A stretch of 64,000 nt of DNA from Bacillota bacterium. GTDB lineage: Bacteria; Bacillota; Clostridia; Lachnospirales; Bianqueaceae. Made by a program: the position numbers and the translations under genes. The notes under the pieces are model-generated. The model did not search any database. It saw only the letters and a list, made by a program, of their open reading frames with translations, and had not been told where the DNA came from. Positions 7,559-42,120 of this stretch are shown here, one piece after another (position 1 is the stretch's first letter; every line of letters begins with the position of its first letter). Location of the stretch: the NCBI GenBank assembly GCA_017442535.1, contig JAFRZL010000051.1, forward strand, positions 1-64,000, read 5' to 3'.

Positions 7559-9030
7559 GCAAAAAAATAATCACGATCGTCCGGGATACGGATGATTTTT
7601 CCTGGGAAAACGATTCCGGCACCGACGGGAACGAACTCAGGAATGACGATTTCTTCGCGGAAGAACAGGAAGCGGACGAGCTTTTCGGCCCGGAGCTGGG
7701 GAAGGACTTGCGTGGGAGAAATATCCGGCAGGAGAATCCTCCTCTGGAACTGATCTATCCGGACCGCGTGCCGGAGGAGGTTGAAGAGCCGGATGAGCCG
7801 GATGAATATGAGGAATACGAAGAAGATCCGGCTCCGGAGGGACGCCGCAGGATCAGTGCCAAAGCCTGGATTACCGCCGTGCTTTTCGTTCTGGCACTCG
7901 CTGCGCTGGCCTATGTGGTGACGGACGGTTTCGGCGGGCTCTTCGGCGGCAGCAAAACCCGGATCCTGTGGGAGAGCAATGAACCAATCAGCTTTGAAGG
8001 TACCGACATTACCCTGAGCTCCTGCATCGGAGAGCATAATCTGCTCCTTGCCGGCAGCACGGAGGGGCTTTCCGCCTATTCTGCCGAACGGGTGATGCAG
8101 TGGAGTATTCCCTTTCAAATGAATGACCCTCAGATGCTCCGCAACGGCGACTATTTTGCCGTGCTGGATGTGGGTGAGCGCCAGGCCGTGGTCGGCAATT
8201 CCGCAGGCCGCGCGTATCAGGTACAGTCGCAGTATACGATCGTAAGCGGATTTCTGACGGCACGGGGTCAGCTCGTGCTGATGGCCCAGAACGGCTTGTC
8301 CGACGAGATTCTGGTCTATGGTAAAGACGGCAGTCAGGTGTTGCGCCGCGTCACACATTCGTCGCGGAACGGTAAGCCGGTGCAGGCCGTGCTCAGTGAG
8401 GACGGTAGCGTGCTTGCCACAGCCTATATCGTCTACAACGGCAGTGAAATGGCTTCTTACATCACTTTCTTTGATCTTTCCGCGGCGGGCGGCGCGTATA
8501 CGGACCGGATCTCCGCCAATTTCTACTATCCGGACACGATTTTCGGCGACCTCTGGATCAGCGGAGGCAGCTGTTTTGCCGTCGGTGACAATAAGATCCT
8601 GCGCTACAATATCTCGGGAGTGCCGGAGCTTGCGGACACACAGTCCCTGTCCAACCAGATTTATCTGGAGGACCATTCGGACAGCCTGTATGCTGTGATC
8701 TTTGGAACGGACCGCATGATGGCGGAGGACTCGATGAAAGATTATCTGGTCGTCTACAACACCTCCGGACAGGAGATCCTGCGCCGCAGGCTGGAGAACC
8801 CGACCTATCTTCAAGTCAGCGGAGAACGCCTGATCTATGGAGAAGGGTATCAGTATACCTGTCTGGATGCCAAGGGCAAGGAAGTCTGGCATGAAAGCGC
8901 CCGGCAGAGAACCCTGTATTACGGCCTGCGTCCGGGCGGCCGCCAGGTCATCAAAATGGCGGAAGACGGTTATCATCTGATGGACATTTTAACGGTTGAG
9001 GAGGAAAAAAATGAGCGTGGGACTGATTAA
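7555..9030 (+). CDS. DUF5711 family membrane-anchored beta-propeller-like protein
   Basis: 491 residues starting at a GTG that overlaps the stop of the upstream lipoprotein. An acidic cytoplasmic N-terminus (residues 1-100, Asp/Glu/Pro-rich) precedes one transmembrane helix at about 104-123. A large extracytoplasmic domain with WD-like repeating strands follows (ILWESNEPISF, VMQWSIPF, FFDLS, LRYNISG, LVVYNTSGQEILRR, CLDAKGKEVWHES). This matches the DUF5711 family of Firmicutes, whose role is not established. Operon context with a lipoprotein and CvpA suggests a cell-envelope function, which is inference. Confidence 0.8.
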   Translation: MSKKIITIVRDTDDFSWENDSGTDGNELRNDDFFAEEQEADELFGPELGKDLRGRNIRQENPPLELIYPDRVPEEVEEPDEPDEYEEYEEDPAPEGRRRISAKAWITAVLFVLALAALAYVVTDGFGGLFGGSKTRILWESNEPISFEGTDITLSSCIGEHNLLLAGSTEGLSAYSAERVMQWSIPFQMNDPQMLRNGDYFAVLDVGERQAVVGNSAGRAYQVQSQYTIVSGFLTARGQLVLMAQNGLSDEILVYGKDGSQVLRRVTHSSRNGKPVQAVLSEDGSVLATAYIVYNGSEMASYITFFDLSAAGGAYTDRISANFYYPDTIFGDLWISGGSCFAVGDNKILRYNISGVPELADTQSLSNQIYLEDHSDSLYAVIFGTDRMMAEDSMKDYLVVYNTSGQEILRRRLENPTYLQVSGERLIYGEGYQYTCLDAKGKEVWHESARQRTLYYGLRPGGRQVIKMAEDGYHLMDILTVEEEKNERGTD

Positions 9031-9697
9031 GATCCTGCTGGATTTCGGCGTAGCCGTCATACTGATCCTGGCAGTGATCGTAGGCTGGAAGAGAGGCTTT
9101 GTACAGACGATTTACCAGGCATTCCGCTGGCTGATCTGCATCATCCTTGCCCAGCTGCTGTATCCGTATGTTTCGGATTTGCTCAAGAGCACCGGCCTGG
9201 AAACGACGATCCGGGAGAGCATCATCACCGCACTGGGAGGCAGCCAGAGCGGAGGGGATATCCAGTCTCTTAAGCTTCCGGGTTTTCTGAAAGATCTGCT
9301 GATCAAAAATGACAACACCACCATTTATGAGATGCTTCATGTCAAAACGGCCACCGAGTATGTGAGCGCCTATCTGGCGCAGCTCGCGATCAATGTGATT
9401 TCCGTGCTGCTGCTCATCATCGTCCTGCTGATCGGAACACATCTGCTCGGCGTGGCGCTGAACATTCTGACCAGACTGCCGGTTCTGAACTCGCTGAATT
9501 CCTTCCTGGGCGGCCTGGGAGGCATTGTGCTCGGCATCCTGTATATCTGGATCTTCGGTCTGGTAGTCTATCTGGTCGCCATCCTCGGACACTTGACTTC
9601 GCTTGGTGAAGCGGCAGAGCAGACATGGCTGCTGAATCTGGCTAATCAGTATAATCCGCTGCTGCACTTTGCCATGAATTTCCTGCCAAAGACTTGA
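9011..9697 (+). CDS. CvpA family membrane protein
   Basis: 228 residues with four predicted membrane helices: residues ~5-25 (LLDFGVAVILILAVIVGW, then KRG as in CvpA), ~30-50, ~120-145 and ~165-195 with a glycine-rich turn (GGLGGIVLGILYIW). The family is tied to colicin V production and envelope homeostasis. The ATG at 9011 follows GAGGAGGAAAAAA inside the 3' end of the DUF5711 gene, giving a 20-base overlap. A promoter for the next transcript overlaps the stop codon. Confidence 0.85.
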   Translation: MSVGLIKILLDFGVAVILILAVIVGWKRGFVQTIYQAFRWLICIILAQLLYPYVSDLLKSTGLETTIRESIITALGGSQSGGDIQSLKLPGFLKDLLIKNDNTTIYEMLHVKTATEYVSAYLAQLAINVISVLLLIIVLLIGTHLLGVALNILTRLPVLNSLNSFLGGLGGIVLGILYIWIFGLVVYLVAILGHLTSLGEAAEQTWLLNLANQYNPLLHFAMNFLPKT

Positions 9698-9722
9698 CAG
9701 CAGGTTTTTAAAAGAGTATAAT
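9694..9722 (+). promoter_or_regulatory. Promoter of the TPP-riboswitch-thiT transcript
   Basis: TTGACA - 17 bases - TATAAT, both perfect consensus. The -35 box overlaps the cvpA stop codon and transcription would start just before the riboswitch. Confidence 0.92.
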
Positions 9723-9732
9723 AAGGGCGTAT

Positions 9733-9818
9733 TGCTAGGGGAGTCGTGGGACTGAGAAAGCGGCGCGAGCTGCTGACCCTTTGTACCTGATCCGGATCAT
9801 ACCGGCGTAGGGAAGCAT
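9733..9818 (+). ncRNA. TPP (thi-box) riboswitch
   Basis: The hallmark thi-box segments are present in order: AGGGGAGTC, ACTGAGA, a variable P3a stem, CTGACCCTTTG, ACCTGATCCGGATCATACC and GGCGTAGGGAA. It binds thiamine pyrophosphate and lies between a perfect promoter and the thiamine transporter gene. Downstream, CCTCC (9851-9855) can pair with the Shine-Dalgarno GGAGG (9866-9870), and no strong U-tailed terminator is visible. Translational control is therefore likely, by inference. Confidence 0.95.
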
Positions 9819-9878
9819 GTGCCCTTTTTTCATAGGGCCACCCATCATCTCCTCCAAATTTTATAGGAGGTATTTTTT

Positions 9879-10520
9879 ATGCAAGCATTCTTTGAAAACT
9901 GGTACGGACAGCTGACCGCAGCCGCGGCCGCCGTACTGCTGATCCTGATCGGCATCGGCTTAACCAAAGCTTTCAGCAAGGACAGCCCCCATAAAACGGC
10001 TAAAATGCTGGTCTTTTCGGCCATGGCCGTTGCGATTGCCGTAGTGCTCAGCATGCTGAAAATCATCCGCATGCCTCAGGGCGGCAGTATCACCCTTTTC
10101 AGCATGTTCGTGATTACACTGATCGGCTATTTCTACGGACCCGCTCAGGGCATCCTCTGCGGTATGTCCTACGGCATGATCCAGCTGCTGATCGATCCCT
10201 ATATCATCTCTCCCGTGCAGATGCTGGTGGATTATCCGCTCGCCTTCGCGATGCTCGGACTCTCCGGCTTCTTCCGCAACAGGAGCGACGGCCTGATCAC
10301 CGGTTATGCAGTCAGCTGCTTCGGAAGGCTTATCATGTCCGTTCTTTCCGGCGTCATCTTCTTCTCCGAATATGCCGGTGAGATGAATCCCTGGGCTTAC
10401 TCCATCGGTTACAACATCGCCTATATCGGCGGTGAAGCACTGCTGACGGTAGTCGTCTTCATGGTCGTAACGCCCGTCCGCAACATGGTCGAGCGCATCA
10501 AACGCATGGCTTTAAGCTAA
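9879..10520 (+). CDS. thiT: Thiamine ECF transporter S component ThiT
   Basis: 213 residues and six predicted membrane helices. The KIIRMPQGGSITLFSMF signature and the following IGYFYGPAQGI segment are the thiamine-binding loop region of the ThiT/YuaJ family. These S components bind thiamine and pair with a shared EcfAA'T module, not present in this window. The TPP riboswitch in its leader independently supports the substrate. AGGAGGT lies 8 bases before the ATG and is predicted to be masked by an upstream CCTCC. A strong terminator follows. Confidence 0.94.
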   Translation: MQAFFENWYGQLTAAAAAVLLILIGIGLTKAFSKDSPHKTAKMLVFSAMAVAIAVVLSMLKIIRMPQGGSITLFSMFVITLIGYFYGPAQGILCGMSYGMIQLLIDPYIISPVQMLVDYPLAFAMLGLSGFFRNRSDGLITGYAVSCFGRLIMSVLSGVIFFSEYAGEMNPWAYSIGYNIAYIGGEALLTVVVFMVVTPVRNMVERIKRMALS

Positions 10521-10526
10521 AAAAAC

Positions 10527-10602
10527 GGCCCGCGTCCCACTTTTGCTTCACCCGGTTGCGCTGCGCGCAAAGGGTTCCGCAAAAGGAGGCGCGGGCCTTT
10601 GC
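10527..10602 (+). terminator. Long-stem terminator behind thiT
   Basis: GGCCCGCG-CC...CTTTTGC pairs with GCAAAAG-GG..CGCGGGCC across a 30-base apical region, followed by CTTTGCTTG. The stem is long and contains further internal complementarity (GTTGCGCTGCGCGCAA). Confidence 0.75.
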
Positions 10603-11105
10603 TTGTTGTGAGAGATTGGGCTGGGCAAGGGGCGTGGAGGGTTGTGAGGTTGGTGGGTGTGTATTGGCCGGTTTTAGATGGAGGTCGGAGAGATTTGGTG
10701 GATGGAGTTGGTCTGCGTCCCCGGTGTAACTTTTTATCCAGCACTTTCCTCTAAAACGATCTGTTTTATGGGGTGGATGTCGAAAGTGCTGAATAGAACG
10801 CCGGTTTATCCAGTACTTTCGTTATAATGAGCGTTATTATTGACCTGATATTTAAATGTGCTGGATAGCATATATTAAAGCGGATGGTCTGCGTCCCCAC
10901 GGTCACATGAGCATCCGAGTTTTTAATGGAAAACGGCTTTTTCTAGGCCTTTCGCGCTGAAACACGGATAAAAAATGCACTTTTAAACCGTGTTTGGCGG
11001 TGAAGGCGGTTGTGATGAAGCGGTTCACATCAAATCACGGATAAGAAGGTGATGACTGGGACGGAGACGCGCGAAATTATCAATCAAACCCGCAGATCTA
11101 TCGCG

Positions 11106-11136
11106 AAAACCCGCTGGCTTGGCCAGCGGGTTTTTT
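11106..11136 (+). terminator. Isolated hairpin terminator in non-coding region
   Basis: AAACCCGCTGG / CCAGCGGGTTT stem followed by TTTTTT. No gene is visible immediately upstream, so it may end an unidentified small transcript. Confidence 0.7.
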
Positions 11137-11286
11137 CGTCTCACTCCAGCGGATTTTCGCTTCTCAGGTCATGCGTCTCACTTCAGCGGCTTTTCATCTG
11201 TCTCCGTCCCTCGTCACGTGCATTTATATAGCTCTAGCACCATCAATTGCATTTATAAAGCTCCGTCCCCATCACCCATTTCCATA

Positions 11287-11325
11287 TTGCCCGAATACGG
11301 GTCTTACCAATTAGACCACGCCCTC
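11287..11325 (-). pseudogene. Possible 5' fragment of a tRNA gene
   Basis: On the minus strand a GGGCGTG-like acceptor half is followed by GTCT-AATTGGTA-AGAC, a normal D-arm with the conserved GG and A positions. No anticodon or T-arm can be formed afterwards (CCCG-TATT-CGGG instead). It looks like a degraded or truncated tRNA, perhaps Gly-type. Confidence 0.35.
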
Positions 11326-11354
11326 TTGACAAATCAAATCTAATGTATTAGACT
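11326..11354 (+). promoter_or_regulatory. Promoter and operator of the BlaI-M56 pair
   Basis: TTGACA, 17 bases, TAGACT. Inside it lies the dyad TCTAAT-GT-ATTAGA (11339-11352), overlapping spacer and -10 box. This is a good candidate autoregulatory operator for the BlaI-type repressor encoded next. Confidence 0.7.
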
Positions 11355-11387
11355 TTAAGCAGATAACAGGAGAGAGGAGCGGTCGAC

Positions 11388-11750
11388 ATGACGGATGGAC
11401 GAGTTTCGGCGGGGGAATGGAGGTTTCTCAATATTATCTGGAGGAATGAGCCGGTCGGGTCAGGCAGGTTGGTGGAGCTTTGCCAGCAGGAGCTGGGATG
11501 GGCCAAGTCGACGACCTATACCAGGCTTCACATTCTGATTGCAAAAGGGATGGTGGAGAACAAGCAGACGATCGTTACGAGCCTCATTTCACGCGAGCAA
11601 GTGCAGGCTTCGGAGAGCGCGTATGTGGTGAACGAAACGTTTGAAGGGTCGCTGCCGGGGTTTGTGGCGGCTTTTCTGGGTGAACGCAAGTTGACCGAAG
11701 AGGAGGCCGACGCACTCAGAAAGCTGATCGACGGTTACAGGGAGGGGTGA
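11388..11750 (+). CDS. BlaI/MecI/CopY family transcriptional repressor
   Basis: 120 residues, the normal length for the family. A winged helix-turn-helix occupies residues ~5-75 (SAGEWRFLNIIWRNEPV, AKSTTYTRLHILIAKGMV) and a helical dimerisation region follows (FVAAFLGERKLTEEEADALRKLIDGY). BlaI-type repressors are usually cleaved or released when a cognate M56 membrane protease senses a signal. That partner follows immediately, overlapping by four bases if its GTG start is used. A dyad in its own promoter points to autorepression. Confidence 0.92.
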   Translation: MTDGRVSAGEWRFLNIIWRNEPVGSGRLVELCQQELGWAKSTTYTRLHILIAKGMVENKQTIVTSLISREQVQASESAYVVNETFEGSLPGFVAAFLGERKLTEEEADALRKLIDGYREG

Positions 11751-31779: not shown

Positions 31780-31812
31780 GGCAGGGGCGGCGATCCGTTC
31801 CCTGCCTTTTTT
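31780..31812 (+). terminator. Plus-strand terminator
   Basis: GGCAGGG / CCCTGCC stem followed by TTTTTT, overlapping the stop codon of the convergent GDPD gene. It implies a plus-strand transcript from the 31.5 kb region. Confidence 0.65.
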
Positions 31813-32518
31813 AGTGCATATTCCCAAGCAACATATACTCGTGCAGTTTATCCGGGAAATTAACGGTCATCCCGTCAACACCTGCATCAAAGACAGACTT
31901 CATAAGCATCTCGTCTTTAATACCGTATGCTCTCACGTTAAAACCTTCCGCATGCAGATGCCGGACTAGTTCCGGTGTAACAATGTTCGCATTGGGGCAG
32001 ACTTCGGTTATTCCGATGGTCCGCATGACGGGGAGCGTCAATTCATTGACATCTTTGGTCAGATAACCGAGCCGGAATTCGGGCCCATACAGGCGCGCCC
32101 TCATCAGGCAGTTCAGATTAAACGATGTAAGCACGGTTTTCCGGGCGAGGTTAAACTCACGCAGCATGTCAATGGTTTCCCGCTCGGTAAACTCCTGCTT
32201 GAATTCAATGGCAAAGGTAATATCCCTGTCCGCGAACTCCGTCAGAAAATCCCGAAGCCGCGGGATTCTGCCGCTTTTTCCCTGCACATTGACATTCAGA
32301 ACCGACAGCTCGTCATACGTATAATCCTGTACACGGCCAGGCGCACCGGTGACACGCATCAGCGTATCATCGTGAAAAAGGACCAGCACACCGTCTTTGG
32401 TGCGGTGAATATCCGTCTCAATGCCATTCGCCCCCATCTCAAGGCCCAGACGGAAGGACTCTATGGTGTTTTCGGGCTCGTATGCACTGGCGCCCCTGTG
32501 GGCGTAATTGATGAACAT
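31811..32518 (-). CDS. Glycerophosphodiester phosphodiesterase
   Basis: 235 residues with a complete GDPD TIM-barrel signature: AHRGASAYEPENTIESF, GIETDIHRTKDGVLVLFHDDTL and AIEFKQEF, with the metal-binding Glu/Asp and the two catalytic histidines. It has no signal peptide, so the enzyme is cytoplasmic and would release glycerol-3-phosphate from glycerophosphodiesters. AGAAGGATTATTA precedes the ATG. It is separated by 88 bases from the AT-rich metallophosphoesterase gene upstream and regains the base composition of the rest of the chromosome. Confidence 0.93.
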   Translation of the reverse strand: MFINYAHRGASAYEPENTIESFRLGLEMGANGIETDIHRTKDGVLVLFHDDTLMRVTGAPGRVQDYTYDELSVLNVNVQGKSGRIPRLRDFLTEFADRDITFAIEFKQEFTERETIDMLREFNLARKTVLTSFNLNCLMRARLYGPEFRLGYLTKDVNELTLPVMRTIGITEVCPNANIVTPELVRHLHAEGFNVRAYGIKDEMLMKSVFDAGVDGMTVNFPDKLHEYMLLGNMH

Positions 32519-32606
32519 TAATAATCCTTCTTTCTACTGATTTGTGTAATGGGGTTGATATTGTGTTGCAGTCTGATGTTACCAAGAGATTATTATGTCT
32601 ATCTGT

Positions 32607-35600
32607 TTACTTTGAGGACTCTAATGATTTAGGCTTTCTTTTTTGCTTGGGCAGTTTATCAGGCCAAAGCGAAAGAATATGGTAATCTAGCTTTTGCAAC
32701 TTATTTACTTGTCTGGAGATACGATATAAATCCGTTTTATAATAAGGAACAGGGGCCTTAATACGAGGATTTGTTTTTGAAGAAGAAAGAGCAGGAAGAT
32801 CGTTTTTTGAACCATAGCTTAGCAGTTTATTATATGTGATAAAAAGCTTGGGACACTCTGCTTCCAATAAATCAGGAATAGAAGGATAGACTACCTTATC
32901 AATCATATCTTTTGCCCTATATGCCGTTATGGAAGCATCATCCGGATTTAGATAAATATGATTATAAAAATCAATATTTATAATGCATCCATGGATTGTA
33001 CCGCTACCCCCTATTTTTCGGATGTCTTCAGCTATTTTCTTCTGTAAGGAAGAGTATTTCTCTAAGATCCTGTGGCTGATTGCAATGACATAATCCATGT
33101 TATCGTAATAATACTTAATGTCTTTATTAGCCAATTTTTTTAGTGCACCACCATTCAAGATACTGAGGTCCTTAGTCTTTGATTGGTGAATAAAGCAATA
33201 ATACCCATTTTTCTTGAGCATATAGAGGACATTAATATCCCGATAAAATGTAGCCATTTTGTTCATTCCGCTAAGAAAGTGCCGGTATTCATCGGCTGTT
33301 ATCTCGAATATCCCATCCTCGTAGTCAGAGAAATAGTCATAGGAAACACACATTTCAAAACTTTTCAAATGTGGCATTGCGCTTGGTCTGCTTTTTTGAT
33401 ATCCAAATTGATTATCTGAATAGACTCTCACTACATTATCATCAAAAAACATGTTTCGATGATTATGACCACTTACATAAACAAATCTAGGATGGTAACA
33501 ATTATATGCAGGAAATCCAATTTCGTTTTGGGTTTCCTTTTCTTTGGCAGCTCGTTCATACCAATCAGATAAAGGCATATGAGTCATGACAATAACATTT
33601 TTGTCAGTAAAAGATTTGCAGACTTTATCATATAGCTTTTCAAACTTCATCGTCTCGGCAATCTCAAAAGTTCTGCTATAGCCAATGGTGTTATTATATC
33701 GGTATAAACCATTTAATGCATTGAACTCTTCGTTATACCCAGAAAAACCTATCCCTCCAAATAGAATAAGAGATGCGTTCCTAACTCGACTTCGCAGGTC
33801 TTCAATGGTCAATTCAACGATCTCACTTTCAGAAATATGTTGAACAGGGGAGTAGTCGTCTTCCAGATACCAAATATCGTTCTGAAGCAAGAACATGCCA
33901 TTATCCTTTAACAGCATTCGATAAGTATTCACAATTTGATCAAAAGAAGAGCGTGGCAGACTCCAGAGGTCATGATTTCCAAGGGTAAAAAAGATTTTCC
34001 TCCTGTTACCCATCTGAGAAGACAATTCTTTAACAAACAAATTAAAGACTGTATAATCCAGACAAGTATCCCCATTAATCAAAATGCAATGGTTATACTT
34101 GCTTTCATCAAGAATAGTATGGACAATTCTGCGTATAATCAACAGAATGTCTGCCTGCGATTCAACTCCATGGTTATTAAGCAGATGATACAAATGAATG
34201 TCTGAAATATAGTAGATATCTTTTATAAATGGATCGATTGGTTCTATTTTTGATATGCAATCATCATCTTCCTCAGTAATCAAACAATCATTCATCTCGT
34301 CAGAAAAAGAAGAGAGAAGAGGATAATCTGTTTCATTTTTCTCTGTATATTTAAAAGAAGCGTCCTCTATAAACGGAATCTGGATATGCCTATATGATAG
34401 TCCGAGCTTTTTACAAATAGAGCTTGGTATAAGTGCATTCCTAAGATCAATCCCATTAAGGTTTTGAAGATGGATCAACCCGGTACAATCCAACAAATCT
34501 GATTCAGACAAATCGCCATTTAAAAAGGCAACAAAATCACAAAAATAATCGAAATGATGAACAAACTGCTTTATTATCAGCCGATTATTAGTCCATGTTT
34601 GAGCTACGTGAAAGCTTCCATTATAGAACCGTTTCGTTACAGTGTAATCTAGGCTATCATAACTTGTGTATGGAAGCTTTGTGTTTTCATTGGTTATATA
34701 TTTAGTGAAATCTCTTTTCAAATTGAAATCATTGGATAAGTCCGTATCAGATAAATCACCATCTCTATATTCAATGAATTTATCAAAGGAATCAAAATAT
34801 CTATATGAATAACACCATTCACCCATTCCTTGTTCTAACGTATATGTACTTCCTATAAGACGGTACTTCGATTCTTCCCAGTAGTAATGGGTTAATGTAT
34901 CGAAAAAAGCTCTCTTACTATCAAATGCTATCAATCCTTTTTCAACGCCTTTTGCAAAATTCTTTAAACGACGTTGCTGGCTTCTACTATTATTTTTGTA
35001 AGCATTAACAACCATGTTTGGATTATAAACCATACATAGTTGACGAACAACACTGCTAAAACAAGATAACTTGGATAAAAAGGACATTATTATTCTAAAT
35101 CTTTGATTTCGACGGGTTTCCTTGTAAATGAGATCCCAGATATACCAAGTATTAAAACGCCTTGAGTTGAATTCGCGATGTTTTATGAGATAATCATGAA
35201 TGGGGGAGCTATAATATGAATCTACAGTTCTTTGAAATTCGCTTATTGTAGTACAAGAATCGAATGAAGCAAGTAAAAGCTGTATTTCTTTTTTTCTGAC
35301 CTCACCTTCCTCATATTCAATCAATTCAGACTCTGTTGGAGAAAGAGTATAGCTGTCGATGGTTTCTGATAACGATGGTTTCCTGTTTAGAATTTTATTG
35401 ATATCAACGTTATCAGAAAGCGTTGATGGATCTATCTGATAATAGCATGAGTTTTCATATATATCACCATTAACATATGAACAATAACTACTAAAGTCGT
35501 TGAAAGTAGTATGGTTTTTATATCCATCAATTACTTCGTCAACAAAAAAGCAATCTTCTATAACGTCATAGCCCTTAAAAACATAAGATCTTTTTTTGGA

Positions 35601-35714
35601 TTGCTGTTTAGGCTGAATGTTACTGTATATGCCTTCTCGTTCCTCAGGTGTTACATTTGATAAATATGAACTATCTTTTGATAGTAAAAAAGTGTTTCCT
35701 TGTTCTTTTTCCAT
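32607..35714 (-). CDS. AT-rich 1035-aa calcineurin-like metallophosphoesterase with large novel N-terminal region
   Basis: The metallophosphoesterase core lies at about 498-760 with all five motifs: SDIHLYH (Asp505, His507), NGDTCLDY (Asp549), LGNHDLW (579-584), MTHMPLSDW (His712) and SGHNHR (His750, His752). The ~495-residue N-terminal region is not recognised. It holds a repeated motif F-x-x-F-x-x-(F/Y)-x-x-(F/Y)-x-x-GD(L/I) at 71-85, 307-326 and 388-407, twice completed as GDLS-x-x-DL. The C-terminal ~275 residues are alpha/beta with a basic tail. No signal peptide or membrane helix. Codon choice is strongly AT-biased compared with both neighbours, indicating transfer. Its start lies only 8 bases behind the preceding gene, with AAGGG as RBS. 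A nuclease or nucleotide-hydrolase role in defence is possible but is inference. Confidence 0.8.
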   Translation of the reverse strand: MEKEQGNTFLLSKDSSYLSNVTPEEREGIYSNIQPKQQSKKRSYVFKGYDVIEDCFFVDEVIDGYKNHTTFNDFSSYCSYVNGDIYENSCYYQIDPSTLSDNVDINKILNRKPSLSETIDSYTLSPTESELIEYEEGEVRKKEIQLLLASFDSCTTISEFQRTVDSYYSSPIHDYLIKHREFNSRRFNTWYIWDLIYKETRRNQRFRIIMSFLSKLSCFSSVVRQLCMVYNPNMVVNAYKNNSRSQQRRLKNFAKGVEKGLIAFDSKRAFFDTLTHYYWEESKYRLIGSTYTLEQGMGEWCYSYRYFDSFDKFIEYRDGDLSDTDLSNDFNLKRDFTKYITNENTKLPYTSYDSLDYTVTKRFYNGSFHVAQTWTNNRLIIKQFVHHFDYFCDFVAFLNGDLSESDLLDCTGLIHLQNLNGIDLRNALIPSSICKKLGLSYRHIQIPFIEDASFKYTEKNETDYPLLSSFSDEMNDCLITEEDDDCISKIEPIDPFIKDIYYISDIHLYHLLNNHGVESQADILLIIRRIVHTILDESKYNHCILINGDTCLDYTVFNLFVKELSSQMGNRRKIFFTLGNHDLWSLPRSSFDQIVNTYRMLLKDNGMFLLQNDIWYLEDDYSPVQHISESEIVELTIEDLRSRVRNASLILFGGIGFSGYNEEFNALNGLYRYNNTIGYSRTFEIAETMKFEKLYDKVCKSFTDKNVIVMTHMPLSDWYERAAKEKETQNEIGFPAYNCYHPRFVYVSGHNHRNMFFDDNVVRVYSDNQFGYQKSRPSAMPHLKSFEMCVSYDYFSDYEDGIFEITADEYRHFLSGMNKMATFYRDINVLYMLKKNGYYCFIHQSKTKDLSILNGGALKKLANKDIKYYYDNMDYVIAISHRILEKYSSLQKKIAEDIRKIGGSGTIHGCIINIDFYNHIYLNPDDASITAYRAKDMIDKVVYPSIPDLLEAECPKLFITYNKLLSYGSKNDLPALSSSKTNPRIKAPVPYYKTDLYRISRQVNKLQKLDYHILSLWPDKLPKQKRKPKSLESSK

Positions 35715-35722
35715 TTTTTCCC

Positions 35723-36245: not shown

Positions 36246-36707
36246 TTATTGAGACTCCTTTTCGATTGTTTTTAAGGCGATGGATTCACTGTCCAGATCC
36301 TCGACATCGACGACTCTGAACCCATTCTCCCTGAGCAGCGCGGCGAATACGCCGGAACCCTCGGTCAGATGGCCCGTGAAAGTACCGTCATAGACCTGAT
36401 TTACGCCGCAGGAGGGGCTCCTGGACTGCAAAATGGCCAGATCGATCCCATTCTCCTGCGCTCTCCGCAGGCAGATGACGGCACCTTCACTGAATTCTCT
36501 GTCTTTATCTTCGCCTGCGGTATTCACGACACGGCCGTGAACGATCTCGCAGGAGAGGCGGGGAGTGGGCAAGCCGCCCTCCATCTCGGGACAGACGGGG
36601 ATGACCTCATGGCCGCGGATGAATGCGGCGACTTTTTCACTGTAGTTATTTCCGCCGTTATATTTGCAATTCTGCCCCAGCAGGCAGGCGCTGACCATAA
36701 TTTTCAT
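36246..36707 (-). CDS. DUF523 family protein
   Basis: 153 residues. SACLLGQNCKYNGG at the N-terminus, VCPEMEGGLPTPR and LQSRSPSCGVNQVYDG are the conserved Cys/Arg motifs of DUF523 (YbbK-like). The family is conserved but of unknown chemistry; the conserved cysteines suggest metal or thiol reactivity. Start overlaps the stop of the upstream double acetyltransferase by four bases, implying coupled translation. Confidence 0.88.
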   Translation of the reverse strand: MKIMVSACLLGQNCKYNGGNNYSEKVAAFIRGHEVIPVCPEMEGGLPTPRLSCEIVHGRVVNTAGEDKDREFSEGAVICLRRAQENGIDLAILQSRSPSCGVNQVYDGTFTGHLTEGSGVFAALLRENGFRVVDVEDLDSESIALKTIEKESQ

Positions 36708-37771
36708 GACATTATCCTCTGATAAGCGAATCGAGGTGAACCGTCCTCCACATAGATGATGCCGCAGCGGATGAAGCCATTCTGCTCAATGAGGTGCTGC
36801 ATGGTTTTATTATCCGCATGGGTATCGATCCGGATGTTTCCGGAGAGGCCCCTGCAGTAATCGACGGCGCATTTTAATAGGCCGTGCACCTGCCCGTCGC
36901 CCGCGATGCGGTGGATGGTTACATAGGGTTCATCGTTAAGCCAGTGGCCGTCCTCGATATACTCATAGGTCGGCTCCGCACCTTCAAAGAGGGCAAACAC
37001 CCCGTGGATCTCAGTTTTGCCGCAGATCACAAGGCAGCGGCCCAGCTGGATGTCTTCGCGGATCAGGTCTCCGGTCGGGTAAAAATGTCCCCACTGGGTG
37101 GGATTTCCGTTCCGGATCATATACTCCTGTGCATACCGGTAGATCGCCATGATCCGCTCAAAATCAGCCTCACAGGCTTTTCTGACGCTGAGAGGGGGAT
37201 GGACATCGTTTTTTCCGGAGGACTGCATTGCCATCCATTCTTCTCTCGTCAGCAGATTCACGTGGCCGCGTCTTGTCTCGCCCATCTGCGGGACGGGAAC
37301 GTTCTCCGTCGTCCACTGATACCGGAAGCCCAGTTTCTCCTGCACGCGCCGGGACCTGACATTACCGTCATAATAGCCGCACCAGAGGCGAGTAAGCTTC
37401 AGATCTTCAAAGGCATGACGGATCAGTTCACGCGCCGCTTCCGGCATGATGCCGCGCCCCCAGCAGGGGACACCCAGCCAGTAACCCAGTTCAGCCTCGT
37501 CGTCCGCGGTGGCCAGATCGCTGTGAAAATGCAGGCTGATGCTGCCGACGGGGAGCCCGGTCTCCTTCGGCACGATCGCATAGGTTTCCGGCACCATGAG
37601 GATATTCCGGATCACTTGGCGCGTATGATCCACATCGGTATGCACCGGCCAGCCGGCGACAGGACCCACGCGCGGATCCTTCGCATAGCGAAAGCATTCT
37701 TCCGCATCTGACTCCATCCAGGGCCGGAGAATCAGCCTTTCCGTCGTTAAAATCAAATTCTGAGATTCCAT
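36704..37771 (-). CDS. Tandem GNAT acetyltransferase (RimJ/RimL domain fused to a second GNAT domain)
   Basis: 355 residues. The first ~180 form a RimJ/RimL-type GNAT domain (LILRPWMESDAEECFRYAKDP, LGYWLGVPCWGRGIMPEAARELIRHAF with the acetyl-CoA loop, VQEKLGFRY). Residues ~197-355 form a second GNAT domain (MAIYRYAQEYMIRNGNPTQWG, VTIHRIAGDGQVHGLLKCAVDYC, RIDTHADNKTMQHLIEQNGF), resembling small-molecule acetyltransferases. The substrates are unknown. It begins the operon with DUF523, the 173-residue unknown and the metallophosphoesterase. Confidence 0.85.
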   Translation of the reverse strand: MESQNLILTTERLILRPWMESDAEECFRYAKDPRVGPVAGWPVHTDVDHTRQVIRNILMVPETYAIVPKETGLPVGSISLHFHSDLATADDEAELGYWLGVPCWGRGIMPEAARELIRHAFEDLKLTRLWCGYYDGNVRSRRVQEKLGFRYQWTTENVPVPQMGETRRGHVNLLTREEWMAMQSSGKNDVHPPLSVRKACEADFERIMAIYRYAQEYMIRNGNPTQWGHFYPTGDLIREDIQLGRCLVICGKTEIHGVFALFEGAEPTYEYIEDGHWLNDEPYVTIHRIAGDGQVHGLLKCAVDYCRGLSGNIRIDTHADNKTMQHLIEQNGFIRCGIIYVEDGSPRFAYQRIMS

Positions 37772-39921: not shown

Positions 39922-42120
39922 TCACTTTCGCTGTATACCGTTCGCATCAAGCCAGGCGGACACATCGCCGGGCAGGGCCGACCCGCCCGAATAATGGACG
40001 GAGAGTCCTTCCCCCATCATCGCTTCCGGCGCAAGTTTGGCGATTGCCGTCAGGCTCTGACCAAAACGCCCGCCGCCGTGCGAACAGAAGGGGATGATCG
40101 TCTTGCCTGAAAAATCGTACATTTCTAGGAAAGAAGCAATCGGCATGGGGATCGATGCCCACCAGTTCGGATATCCAAGCAGGATCACATCGTAATCATC
40201 AATGTTTTCCGAAGGATTCGAGATCTCCGGTCTCGCCTGCCGGTGCTGGTCCTCCTGGGCCTCCATCAGAACCGTATTATAGTTTGTGGAATAGGGATGG
40301 ACCGGCTTGATTTCAAACAGATCAGCTCCTGTCTGGTTCTGAATTTCTCGGGCAATGCCTCGTGTATTTCCGCCCCATGAGAAGAAAGCAATCAGTATCC
40401 GTCCGCCAGAGTGTGCAGAACGAACTGTTTCGGCTGCAGTGACGGTCTCAGCCAATCCCTGACCGGCATTCCGGACAAGGCGAACTCCAAGATTTGCGGC
40501 TTTCAGGTCCGATTGCCCTGCGGCGCGGTAGGCACTCCGCATGTTCTTGCCAAAATCATTCCAGCCGCCTCCGCGGTAAACATGCCTGGTGCCGTCAGGT
40601 GCCCCGGTAGGGTCAGAACTGTTCTGCAGGTCATATTCGCCGTAATAATCCCAGCACCATTCATTGACATTGCCGTGCATATCATACAAGCCCCATCTGC
40701 TTGCATAAAAGCTCCCGATCGCGACGGTCGTCTGACGGTAAACGCCAGGCCTCGCCTCCAGAACGGAATCATTGAAGTAGTTTTCTTCGATTTCATAAGG
40801 ATAGTGGCCATAGAAGTTGGCATCGTCCGCGTCAAGGGATTTTTCTGCATTAAAGGGAGTCACTGTTCCGGCACGGCAGGCATATTCCCACTCTGCTTCC
40901 GTAGGAAGCCGGTATCCATTGGCTGAACGATCCCAGACCACTCCGGTATCCGAAACCGTATAAACAGGGTCCAGGCCGGCATCAAGGCTTTTGGCATTGG
41001 AGAAGAGGATCGCATCCAGCCATGAGATGTTCTCCACAGGCAGGCCGGTTCCCGAAAATGTACTGGGATTAAGCCCCATCAGACGTTCGTATTCTTTCTG
41101 AGTCGTTTCATAGGGATCCATGTAGAAGGATGAAATGGTGATGTTATGCTGTATTTCATCACTGATTCTCCAGTTTTCATCTTCCGGACTGCCCATGAGA
41201 AAGCTGCCGCCCTGGATCAGGACATACCCGTCATTGATTTCGACAGGAATCTGTGGATCCGGAGTGCTGATAACGGTGTTTTCCTTACTGTCAGCGGAGA
41301 TGAAAGAGTTTGCTTCTTCATGAGAAACCTCTGTTTGCTGTGAGGGGCTCCATCCCGAATCCGAGGTCTTTTCCGTTTGAATCAGCAACAAGCCCATCCC
41401 GATCAGAATGGCGGACAGGATGCAGAGCACAGCGATCATGGGAGAATTCGAATCGCCCTTCTCACCCTTCAGGCTGCGGATCAGGCGAACGGTATTGGCT
41501 CCGGCAAAAGCGAAAAAGAAGAGTTCGGCCAGATTTTCCAGAAAGACAAGAACACCGCTCTTATCGTAGTCAAAGAAGGCAAAGGGCGAGAGAAAGAAGA
41601 GATAGTCCGGGATCCGGCTCCGAAGGAAGAACAGGAAGCCTAAGCCTGCCGCTATGGTGAAAAGACAGGTCAGCAGAGCTTTAGCCGTTTTGCCTGGCCT
41701 GATCTTTGCCGTCATGGCAGGCAGGTGCAGGCCCAGATGCAGCCCCATCAGGATAAAAGCCCAGTAAGACATGGACAAATGAAAGCGCCTTGCAAATGAG
41801 ACAGGGAGCAGCCCGTATAAAAACGGGACTGCGTGAGCGCTCATGCTCATGCCGCAGACGGCCGTCAGCGCGATCGATGCCAGCAGCAGAGTATTTATCA
41901 CCGTACTCAGAATTCGGTAAGTATTGTACTTTCCTTTGAACAGAGCCCCATACCACCGTATATTCAGCGCGTGATGGAGGATCAGCAGAACGGTCATACC
42001 GATCCCGAACCATTCATGCAGAGTATCGCCGGTTACCTGATAAGCCATCAGGCAGAGCAGCAGGGCAGTCATGCATGCGTCGACGGTCATTCTGAGCATG
42101 TTTTTCTGTTTGGCTTGCAT
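39922..42120 (-). CDS. Triple fusion: DUF4405 membrane domain - SUMF1-like domain - flavodoxin
   Basis: 732 residues. Residues ~8-250 have seven predicted membrane helices with paired histidines (LILHHALN, LHLGLHL), resembling DUF4405 and suggestive of haem b. Residues ~300-560 form a formylglycine-generating-enzyme/SUMF1-like lectin fold (VLIQGGSFLMGSPED, YRLPTEAEWEYACRAG, YDMHGNVNEWCWD, VYRGGGWNDFGKNMRSAYRAA). The catalytic cysteine pair of FGE is absent. Residues ~575-730 are a flavodoxin with phosphate loop FFSWGGNTRGIA and LLGYPNWWASIPMP. Seven helices would put both C-terminal domains outside the cell. AAGGAGACGG precedes the start. It lies 15 bases behind the flavodoxin lipoprotein. 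Confidence 0.85.
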   Translation of the reverse strand: MQAKQKNMLRMTVDACMTALLLCLMAYQVTGDTLHEWFGIGMTVLLILHHALNIRWYGALFKGKYNTYRILSTVINTLLLASIALTAVCGMSMSAHAVPFLYGLLPVSFARRFHLSMSYWAFILMGLHLGLHLPAMTAKIRPGKTAKALLTCLFTIAAGLGFLFFLRSRIPDYLFFLSPFAFFDYDKSGVLVFLENLAELFFFAFAGANTVRLIRSLKGEKGDSNSPMIAVLCILSAILIGMGLLLIQTEKTSDSGWSPSQQTEVSHEEANSFISADSKENTVISTPDPQIPVEINDGYVLIQGGSFLMGSPEDENWRISDEIQHNITISSFYMDPYETTQKEYERLMGLNPSTFSGTGLPVENISWLDAILFSNAKSLDAGLDPVYTVSDTGVVWDRSANGYRLPTEAEWEYACRAGTVTPFNAEKSLDADDANFYGHYPYEIEENYFNDSVLEARPGVYRQTTVAIGSFYASRWGLYDMHGNVNEWCWDYYGEYDLQNSSDPTGAPDGTRHVYRGGGWNDFGKNMRSAYRAAGQSDLKAANLGVRLVRNAGQGLAETVTAAETVRSAHSGGRILIAFFSWGGNTRGIAREIQNQTGADLFEIKPVHPYSTNYNTVLMEAQEDQHRQARPEISNPSENIDDYDVILLGYPNWWASIPMPIASFLEMYDFSGKTIIPFCSHGGGRFGQSLTAIAKLAPEAMMGEGLSVHYSGGSALPGDVSAWLDANGIQRK

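Follow-up and report, generated by a model that had tools for sequence, protein, structure and literature searches.

Phage defence based on metallophosphoesterases (MPEs) was reported in 2026: DS-8 (NACHT-metallophosphatase), a single-gene system with a NACHT ATPase and an SMPDL3A-like MPE, and DS-9, which has a HAD partner, both protect against phage, and their MPE residues are required (PMC13092281, Science 2026). On the phage side, a counter-defence MPE, Gp48 of mycobacteriophage A10ZJ24, acts as a phosphodiesterase and damages the integrity of genomic DNA (PMC12287305). Here we analysed a 64,000-nucleotide stretch of DNA from a Bacillota bacterium (contig JAFRZL010000051.1 of assembly GCA_017442535.1; hereafter the window), in which a single AT-rich gene encodes a protein with a central MPE domain and long N- and C-terminal regions. 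The gene belongs to a family that crosses bacterial genera as a unit barely larger than the gene itself and keeps its AT-rich composition. From the sequences and structural models, we give an even chance to the reading that it is a horizontally mobile, single-gene defence effector whose Mre11-like nuclease would be licensed by a foreign cue.

In a Pfam scan, Metallophos (PF00149) was the sole match of the window protein (residues 500-753, E = 1.2e-9, 39.3 bits vs. a gathering cut-off of 21.5). The original prediction had described the MPE motifs as intact, and this held: DxH, GD, GNH(D/E), H, and GHxH are all complete, and the eight metal-site residues D505, H507, D549, N580, H581, H712, H750, and H752 are invariant across 46 homologues. 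The whole protein was modelled by AlphaFold2 with 46 homologues (mean predicted local distance difference test [pLDDT] 80.6, predicted template modelling score [pTM] 0.71). In a Foldseek comparison of the MPE domain with the PDB, Mre11 entries accounted for 14 of the first 15 matches and for all of ranks 1-7 (probability 0.98-1.00), with a best E of 2.4e-3 at probability 1.00, which places the domain in the MPE nuclease fold at a modest score. Searches of the PDB with phmmer and hmmsearch gave nothing reliable. The viral matches were headed by phage and giant-virus MPEs, and the PHROGs matches at the MPE position were generic phage phosphoesterases.

The MPE domain is a predicted metal-dependent nuclease of the Mre11/SbcD type, probably using Mn2+, because its nearest solved folds are Mre11, because other proteins of the same architecture have a different nuclease-like domain in its position, and because some relatives bear DNA-binding tails (DUF4379 zinc finger, NUMOD1). 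Among 46 full-length relatives, the tails were DUF4379 in seven, CapR in five, and NUMOD1 in one. The main argument for a nuclease comes from the exchange of nuclease-like domains on a constant module, together with these occasional tails. Like Mre11/SbcD, the window protein has the full set of metal-site motifs; unlike Mre11/SbcD, it has no cap and helix-loop-helix of the Mre11 kind but an N-terminal half of 490 residues and a C-terminal module whose fold is unmatched, and no Rad50/SbcC gene recurrently adjoins members of the family. Since that partner is missing, the family is not a member of Mre11/SbcD.

The constant piece of the architecture is the C-terminal module, which some proteins join to an MPE and others to a PD-(D/E)XK-like domain. 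At loci L014, L024, and L125 the module follows a PADLOC PDC-S61 domain and no MPE is present (E = 9e-82, 6e-81, and 2.5e-61). The PDC-S61 domains of these three proteins show a visible D-x-D ... (E/D)LK ... Q..xYY signature, and two of them also match RTasPDDEXK, the reverse-transcriptase-associated PD-(D/E)XK model (E = 5.5e-9 and 2e-8). Such fusions were found on Limosilactobacillus reuteri plasmids, on a bacterial chromosome, and on a viral contig. Furthermore, L022 has an intact MPE with a degenerate PDC-S61 domain ahead of it (E = 1e-11), in which the signature is lost. PDC-S61 is itself a single-gene, PD-(D/E)XK-like candidate; its stand-alone proteins, of about 250 residues and located on plasmids, lack the C-terminal module. 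The window protein gave no match to the PDC-S61 profile at E ≤ 1, and the 46 family members gave none either. The PADLOC PDC-S61 model spans the N-terminal domain only, and fusion with the C-terminal module is not described by that model.

Modelled alone with 81 homologues, one plasmid-record sequence being left out of the alignment, the C-terminal module reached a pLDDT of 91.8 and a pTM of 0.83. No match to its fold was found in the PDB (best E 0.81, probability 0.05, template modelling [TM] score 0.14), and in comparison with the PDB only it is possibly a new fold. K834, F841, G855, G905, H908, G909, I911, H919, and Y997 are invariant in the module, and D913, D915, N923, and D926 are nearly so; among them is a His/Asp cluster that resembles a putative ligand, metal, or catalytic site. 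A match to the PARP-1 BRCT domain was attributed to chance, as its E was 0.003 with 15 sequences and 0.09 with 82 and it gained no support from the fold search. We lean somewhat against, and hold only tentatively, a broader proposal: the module would be a new fold that serves either an MPE or a PD-(D/E)XK nuclease as a shared sensor or a further catalytic unit, and the family would form a novel class of single-gene immune nucleases that has travelled through Bacillota one gene at a time and is AT-rich in every host.

The N-terminal half of the window protein comprises three copies of one unit, in which strands are followed by a helix with an F..F..Y pattern and then by GDL. HMM-HMM (hidden Markov model) comparison gave probabilities of 93.8 for units 1 and 2, 95.6 for units 2 and 3, and 74.6 for units 1 and 3, with controls below 2, and a helical domain sits between copies 1 and 2. 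The N-terminus varies across the family. In relatives of the L031 type, most of the N-terminal half gives way to DUF4116 repeats, to which the window protein shows no match. The original prediction had called both terminal regions unrecognisable. This was correct in that neither has a Pfam, NCBIfam, or PADLOC match, but the N-terminus resolves into repeats and a helical domain, and the C-terminus into a widely conserved module.

As to mechanism, the protein may be held off in a resting state until a cue from a foreign element appears. The cue, a phage protein or an unusual DNA or RNA structure, would bind the N-terminal repeats and/or the C-terminal module, and the MPE would then cut nucleic acid, either the invader's or, as an abortive response, the cell's own. 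We infer a role in defence because of the exchange with a PADLOC-candidate nuclease domain, the Mre11-like fold, the carriage by prophages and elements, and the published DS-8 and DS-9 systems. The original prediction of an anti-phage or toxin-type nuclease or nucleotide hydrolase thus survives as nuclease-type defence at the level of inference, whereas no evidence of a toxin was found; a toxin-antitoxin reading is not favoured, since no small partner gene recurs. Several points weigh against a defence nuclease. Mre11 is matched with modest scores (E = 2.4e-3, target TM about 0.4), and the eighth entry in the PDB list is the phosphodiesterase GpdQ; the DNA-binding tails occur in a minority of relatives; and PDC-S61 is itself a defence candidate only. 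In addition, residue 913 (window 32976-32978) is N in the window copy and D in 80 of 81 homologues (IHGCIINID vs. IHGxIIDID); being alone among 81 at this conserved position, the window copy could be altered there, or the position may tolerate N.

The main alternative, which we consider unlikely, is that the protein is a mobile defence effector whose MPE has a small nucleotide (cyclic nucleotide, dinucleotide, or NTP) as its substrate in place of DNA or RNA. The MPE superfamily includes class III cyclic-nucleotide phosphodiesterases, and the rank of GpdQ fits such a substrate. DS-8 and DS-9 are validated and presumed to act on a cyclic nucleotide (PMC13092281), and the calcineurin-type effectors of GTPase- and vWA-centred conflict systems are predicted to be nucleotidyl phosphodiesterases (PMC7159879). 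However, the folds closest to it are Mre11, and the 50 Foldseek PDB matches listed include no entry of the SMPDL3A type; the MPE stands in for a PD-(D/E)XK nuclease-like domain in a family with DNA-binding tails; and no cyclase or NACHT partner was seen. The window protein itself has no Pfam NTPase match, and no P-loop NTPase is among its confident PDB fold hits. Compared by their descriptions, DS-8 and DS-9 share with the family an MPE-containing protein, and DS-8 the single-gene layout as well, but the family has neither NACHT and HAD parts nor a partner gene and carries a different C-terminal module. Our best reading is that it is related to them in kind and not in make-up; the kind was already known, since MPE-based phage defence had been reported. 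Gp48, likewise compared by description, is also an MPE, but the N- and C-terminal modules are absent from its description.

The mobility of the family was assessed across genomes. A match was found in three of 58 relatives (the window's own genome included) and in neither of two congeners; presence was 10/392 genomes in the order and 8/391 in the class. When an alignment was used to scan GTDB contigs, 114 relatives were confirmed and 80 of these kept; a single-sequence scan of the contigs gave no match. Their hosts are Lachnospiraceae, Oscillospiraceae, Erysipelotrichaceae, Christensenella-type metagenome-assembled genomes (MAGs), Bacillales, and Izimaplasma, and close relatives are colinear end to end at about 40% identity. 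Annotated phages held no close match, the window protein matches no NCBIfam or PADLOC profile, PADLOC gave isolated matches in single members only across the 46, and no description of the MPE/C-terminal-module family was found among open-licence papers.

At the DNA level, identity is 89-96% across Neobacillus (L106, L115), Virgibacillus (L116), and Halalkalibacter (L108, L112), including 92-94% between Neobacillus and Virgibacillus and 91.4% between Halalkalibacter and Virgibacillus. It reaches 97.7% between Blautia luti (L047) and an Eisenbergiella MAG (L042), and 99.6% between MAGs assigned to Clostridiaceae and Erysipelotrichales. The blocks of similarity are about 3.1 kb long and end within about 20-80 bases of the gene. 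For example, L045 8467-11569 aligns with L093 8468-11568, where the genes occupy 8486-11530 and 8453-11530, and in the pairs L045/L093, L016/L045, and L016/L093 the similarity covers the gene plus some tens of bases. In another group of loci, a preceding helix-turn-helix (HTH)-type gene travels with the MPE gene. The gene also lies in prophage L121, where endolysin, holin, and tail genes are on one side and replication genes with a serine recombinase on the other. An integrative element, at L101 (5100-13830) and noted also for L054, has it together with a serine recombinase, HTH genes, and genes that, judged from their sequences, are RepA- and Mob-like. About 0.4 kb just 3' of the MPE gene is conserved in L018, L042, L043, L047, L054, and L101 and is probably non-coding.

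Base composition follows the gene and not the host. Over 77 loci, the guanine-plus-cytosine (GC) content of the family gene is 32.4 ± 4.2% vs. 43 ± 9% for flanking genes, and the slope of gene against flank is 0.19 both for GC and for GC at third codon positions (GC3). Homologues lie at 22-45% GC whatever the host; where flanks exceed 45% GC, the deficit is above 8 points in 29 of 31 loci and averages 18, with extremes of 34% in 62% (L060), 26% in 56% (L066), and 27% in 56% (L114). Purifying selection was evident in 12 pairs (omega 0.13-0.37), the N-terminal half usually being the fastest part. Given the mobility data and this selection, the sequences indicate that the gene is functional and frequently moving, not debris. 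Degraded remnants of the C-terminal module at G009:C39:12263-12358 (L141) and G306:C53:28019-28171 (L140) resemble decayed copies and look like signs of gene loss. At L103, L052, L111, and L023 the gene is broken over two or three frames, through either gain and subsequent decay or draft-sequence errors.

The patchy occurrence, the missing congener matches, the host-independent GC, and the similarity blocks ending near the gene bear out the earlier view of a recently acquired single-gene module, and a universal housekeeping gene at the same locus with the same composition is clearly excluded. The same properties, a single-gene unit placed between genes, patchy, of foreign composition, and with a nuclease-like core, would also suit a selfish, free-standing homing-type gene, that is, a nuclease spreading itself into intergenic sites with no host benefit. 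Matches to PADLOC 'HEase' and I-HmuI NUMOD/NUMOD1 were indeed obtained, in one of 46 members. We nevertheless regard this as improbable: neighbours vary by locus with no recurring cleavage site, NUMOD is missing in 45 of 46 members, neither a known homing catalytic domain nor NUMOD is present in the window protein, and several copies are operonic or in a prophage cargo position. Usual free-standing homing nucleases are far smaller than about 1000 residues, and none is known to use an MPE.

The genes around the family were also surveyed. No partner gene recurs within about 10 kb in clustered neighbourhoods, and neighbours are unrelated from locus to locus, with no single recurring insertion site. 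Some immediate neighbours match GmrSD-type HEC-05, AriA, AbiLi, JetD, AIPR, and PDC models, some are conjugation genes, and L123 has methyltransferase and recombinase genes alongside. This defence-island signal is suggestive only. Two further points count against a defence role: genes of defence are not clearly enriched beside the family gene, with 63 PADLOC models matched among 141 immediate neighbours vs. 85, a figure inflated by redundant methyltransferase models, among 141 genes 6-10 positions away, and many copies are flanked by ordinary housekeeping genes.

Such neighbours, together with the purifying selection, would agree with a horizontally acquired gene that serves fitness or housekeeping, in the repair of nucleic acids or the turnover of nucleotides, and has no role in conflict; Mre11/SbcD and the MPE nucleotidases ordinarily work in repair and metabolism. 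There is little likelihood of this, however, in view of the very patchy distribution (2-3% of genomes, missing from congeners), the fast turnover between genera, the variable N-termini, and the want of a conserved SbcC/Rad50 or metabolic partner. Finally, an assembly or binning artefact is most improbable: the host genome is a 2.25-Mb draft of 52 contigs that is 79.7% complete, but the gene is embedded deep in a 122-kb contig, host-like flanks lie within 8 bases of it, its frame is open, and the pattern of AT-rich genes recurs in dozens of independent assemblies, isolates included.

Within the window, the composition and junctions of the gene agree with the picture from the family. The original prediction of an AT-rich gene between GC-rich flanks was confirmed, at 34.1% GC vs. 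53.8% in the remainder of the window, which is 7 standard deviations (SD) lower; segments of 3.1 kb outside the gene have a mean of 53.9% (SD 2.8, minimum 47.4%). By codon position, GC in the gene is 40/31/31%, giving a GC3 of 31%. The predicted transition within 8 bases of the preceding stop codon was likewise borne out, the drop falling within about 20 bases of that codon (TAA 35723-35725) and the start codon (ATG 35714-35712) following 8 bases on. The spacer between them supplies an AAGGG-type ribosome site that overlaps the upstream stop codon, and the MPE gene is probably expressed by read-through from the upstream gene, because the spacer holds no promoter-like site. On the stop side, composition changes at 32519, adjoining the start of a glycerophosphodiester phosphodiesterase gene (31811-32518); therefore, the AT-rich block takes in the 88-base spacer. 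This downstream gene is on the same strand, so the placement at the end of an operon, which the original prediction had proposed, is uncertain and only partly right.

Direct or inverted repeats of at least 8 bases common to both junctions were not found, nor was a tRNA or Rfam element near the gene. Empty sites were sought from both sides: the upstream gene, of 173 residues, had no homologue in seven relatives, and homologues of the downstream gene in genomes G002 and G012 lie in other contexts. Elsewhere in the window, two genes were noted by eye only, a 355-residue apparent tandem pair of GNAT acetyltransferases (36704-37771, minus strand) and a 732-residue protein with an apparent, unusual combination of a membrane region and FGE-sulfatase/SUMF1-like and flavodoxin-like domains (39922-42120, minus strand). 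The coordinates of the features discussed are collected in Table 1.

Table 1. Positions of the MPE gene, its parts and its spacers in the window, and of the fusion genes at other loci
Feature	Position	Strand	Basis or remark
Whole gene, MPE-centred	32607..35714	-	1035 aa, ATG start, 34.1% GC
Repeat unit 1, residues 41-90	35445..35594	-	Strands, helix F..F..Y, GDI; HMM-HMM and model
Helical domain, residues 100-258	34941..35417	-	AlphaFold2 model, pLDDT mostly 64-91
Repeat unit 2, residues 259-345	34680..34940	-	Strands, helix FDKFIEY, GDLS; HMM-HMM
Repeat unit 3, residues 352-440	34395..34661	-	HMM-HMM; also directly before the MPE in DUF4116-type relatives
MPE domain, residues 497-775	33390..34226	-	PF00149; Foldseek; motif invariance in 46 sequences
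C-terminal module, residues 790-1022	32649..33347	-	Has motif GxIHGxIIDxDxxNHxxxNPxD; also part of PD-(D/E)XK-type proteins
8-base spacer GGGAAAAA, upstream TAA to ATG	35715..35722	-	Read from sequence
AT-rich non-coding tail, gene stop to downstream gene	32519..32606	.	No terminator-like site found there
PDC-S61 and C-terminal module fusions	L014 1870-3579, L015 9170-10879, L024 8114-10336, L125 9074-10930		

If the defence reading is true, the family would be an uncatalogued group of one-gene defence nucleases present in more than 100 genome assemblies of gut, rumen, and soil Bacillota, overlooked by NCBIfam, PADLOC, and, beyond the generic MPE match, Pfam. A C-terminal module without fold match that recurs on two unrelated types of nuclease would then point to a new sensor or activating domain. 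Moreover, the family-wide gap in composition between gene and host would offer a clear test case for the question of why certain mobile genes do not adapt to the host that carries them.

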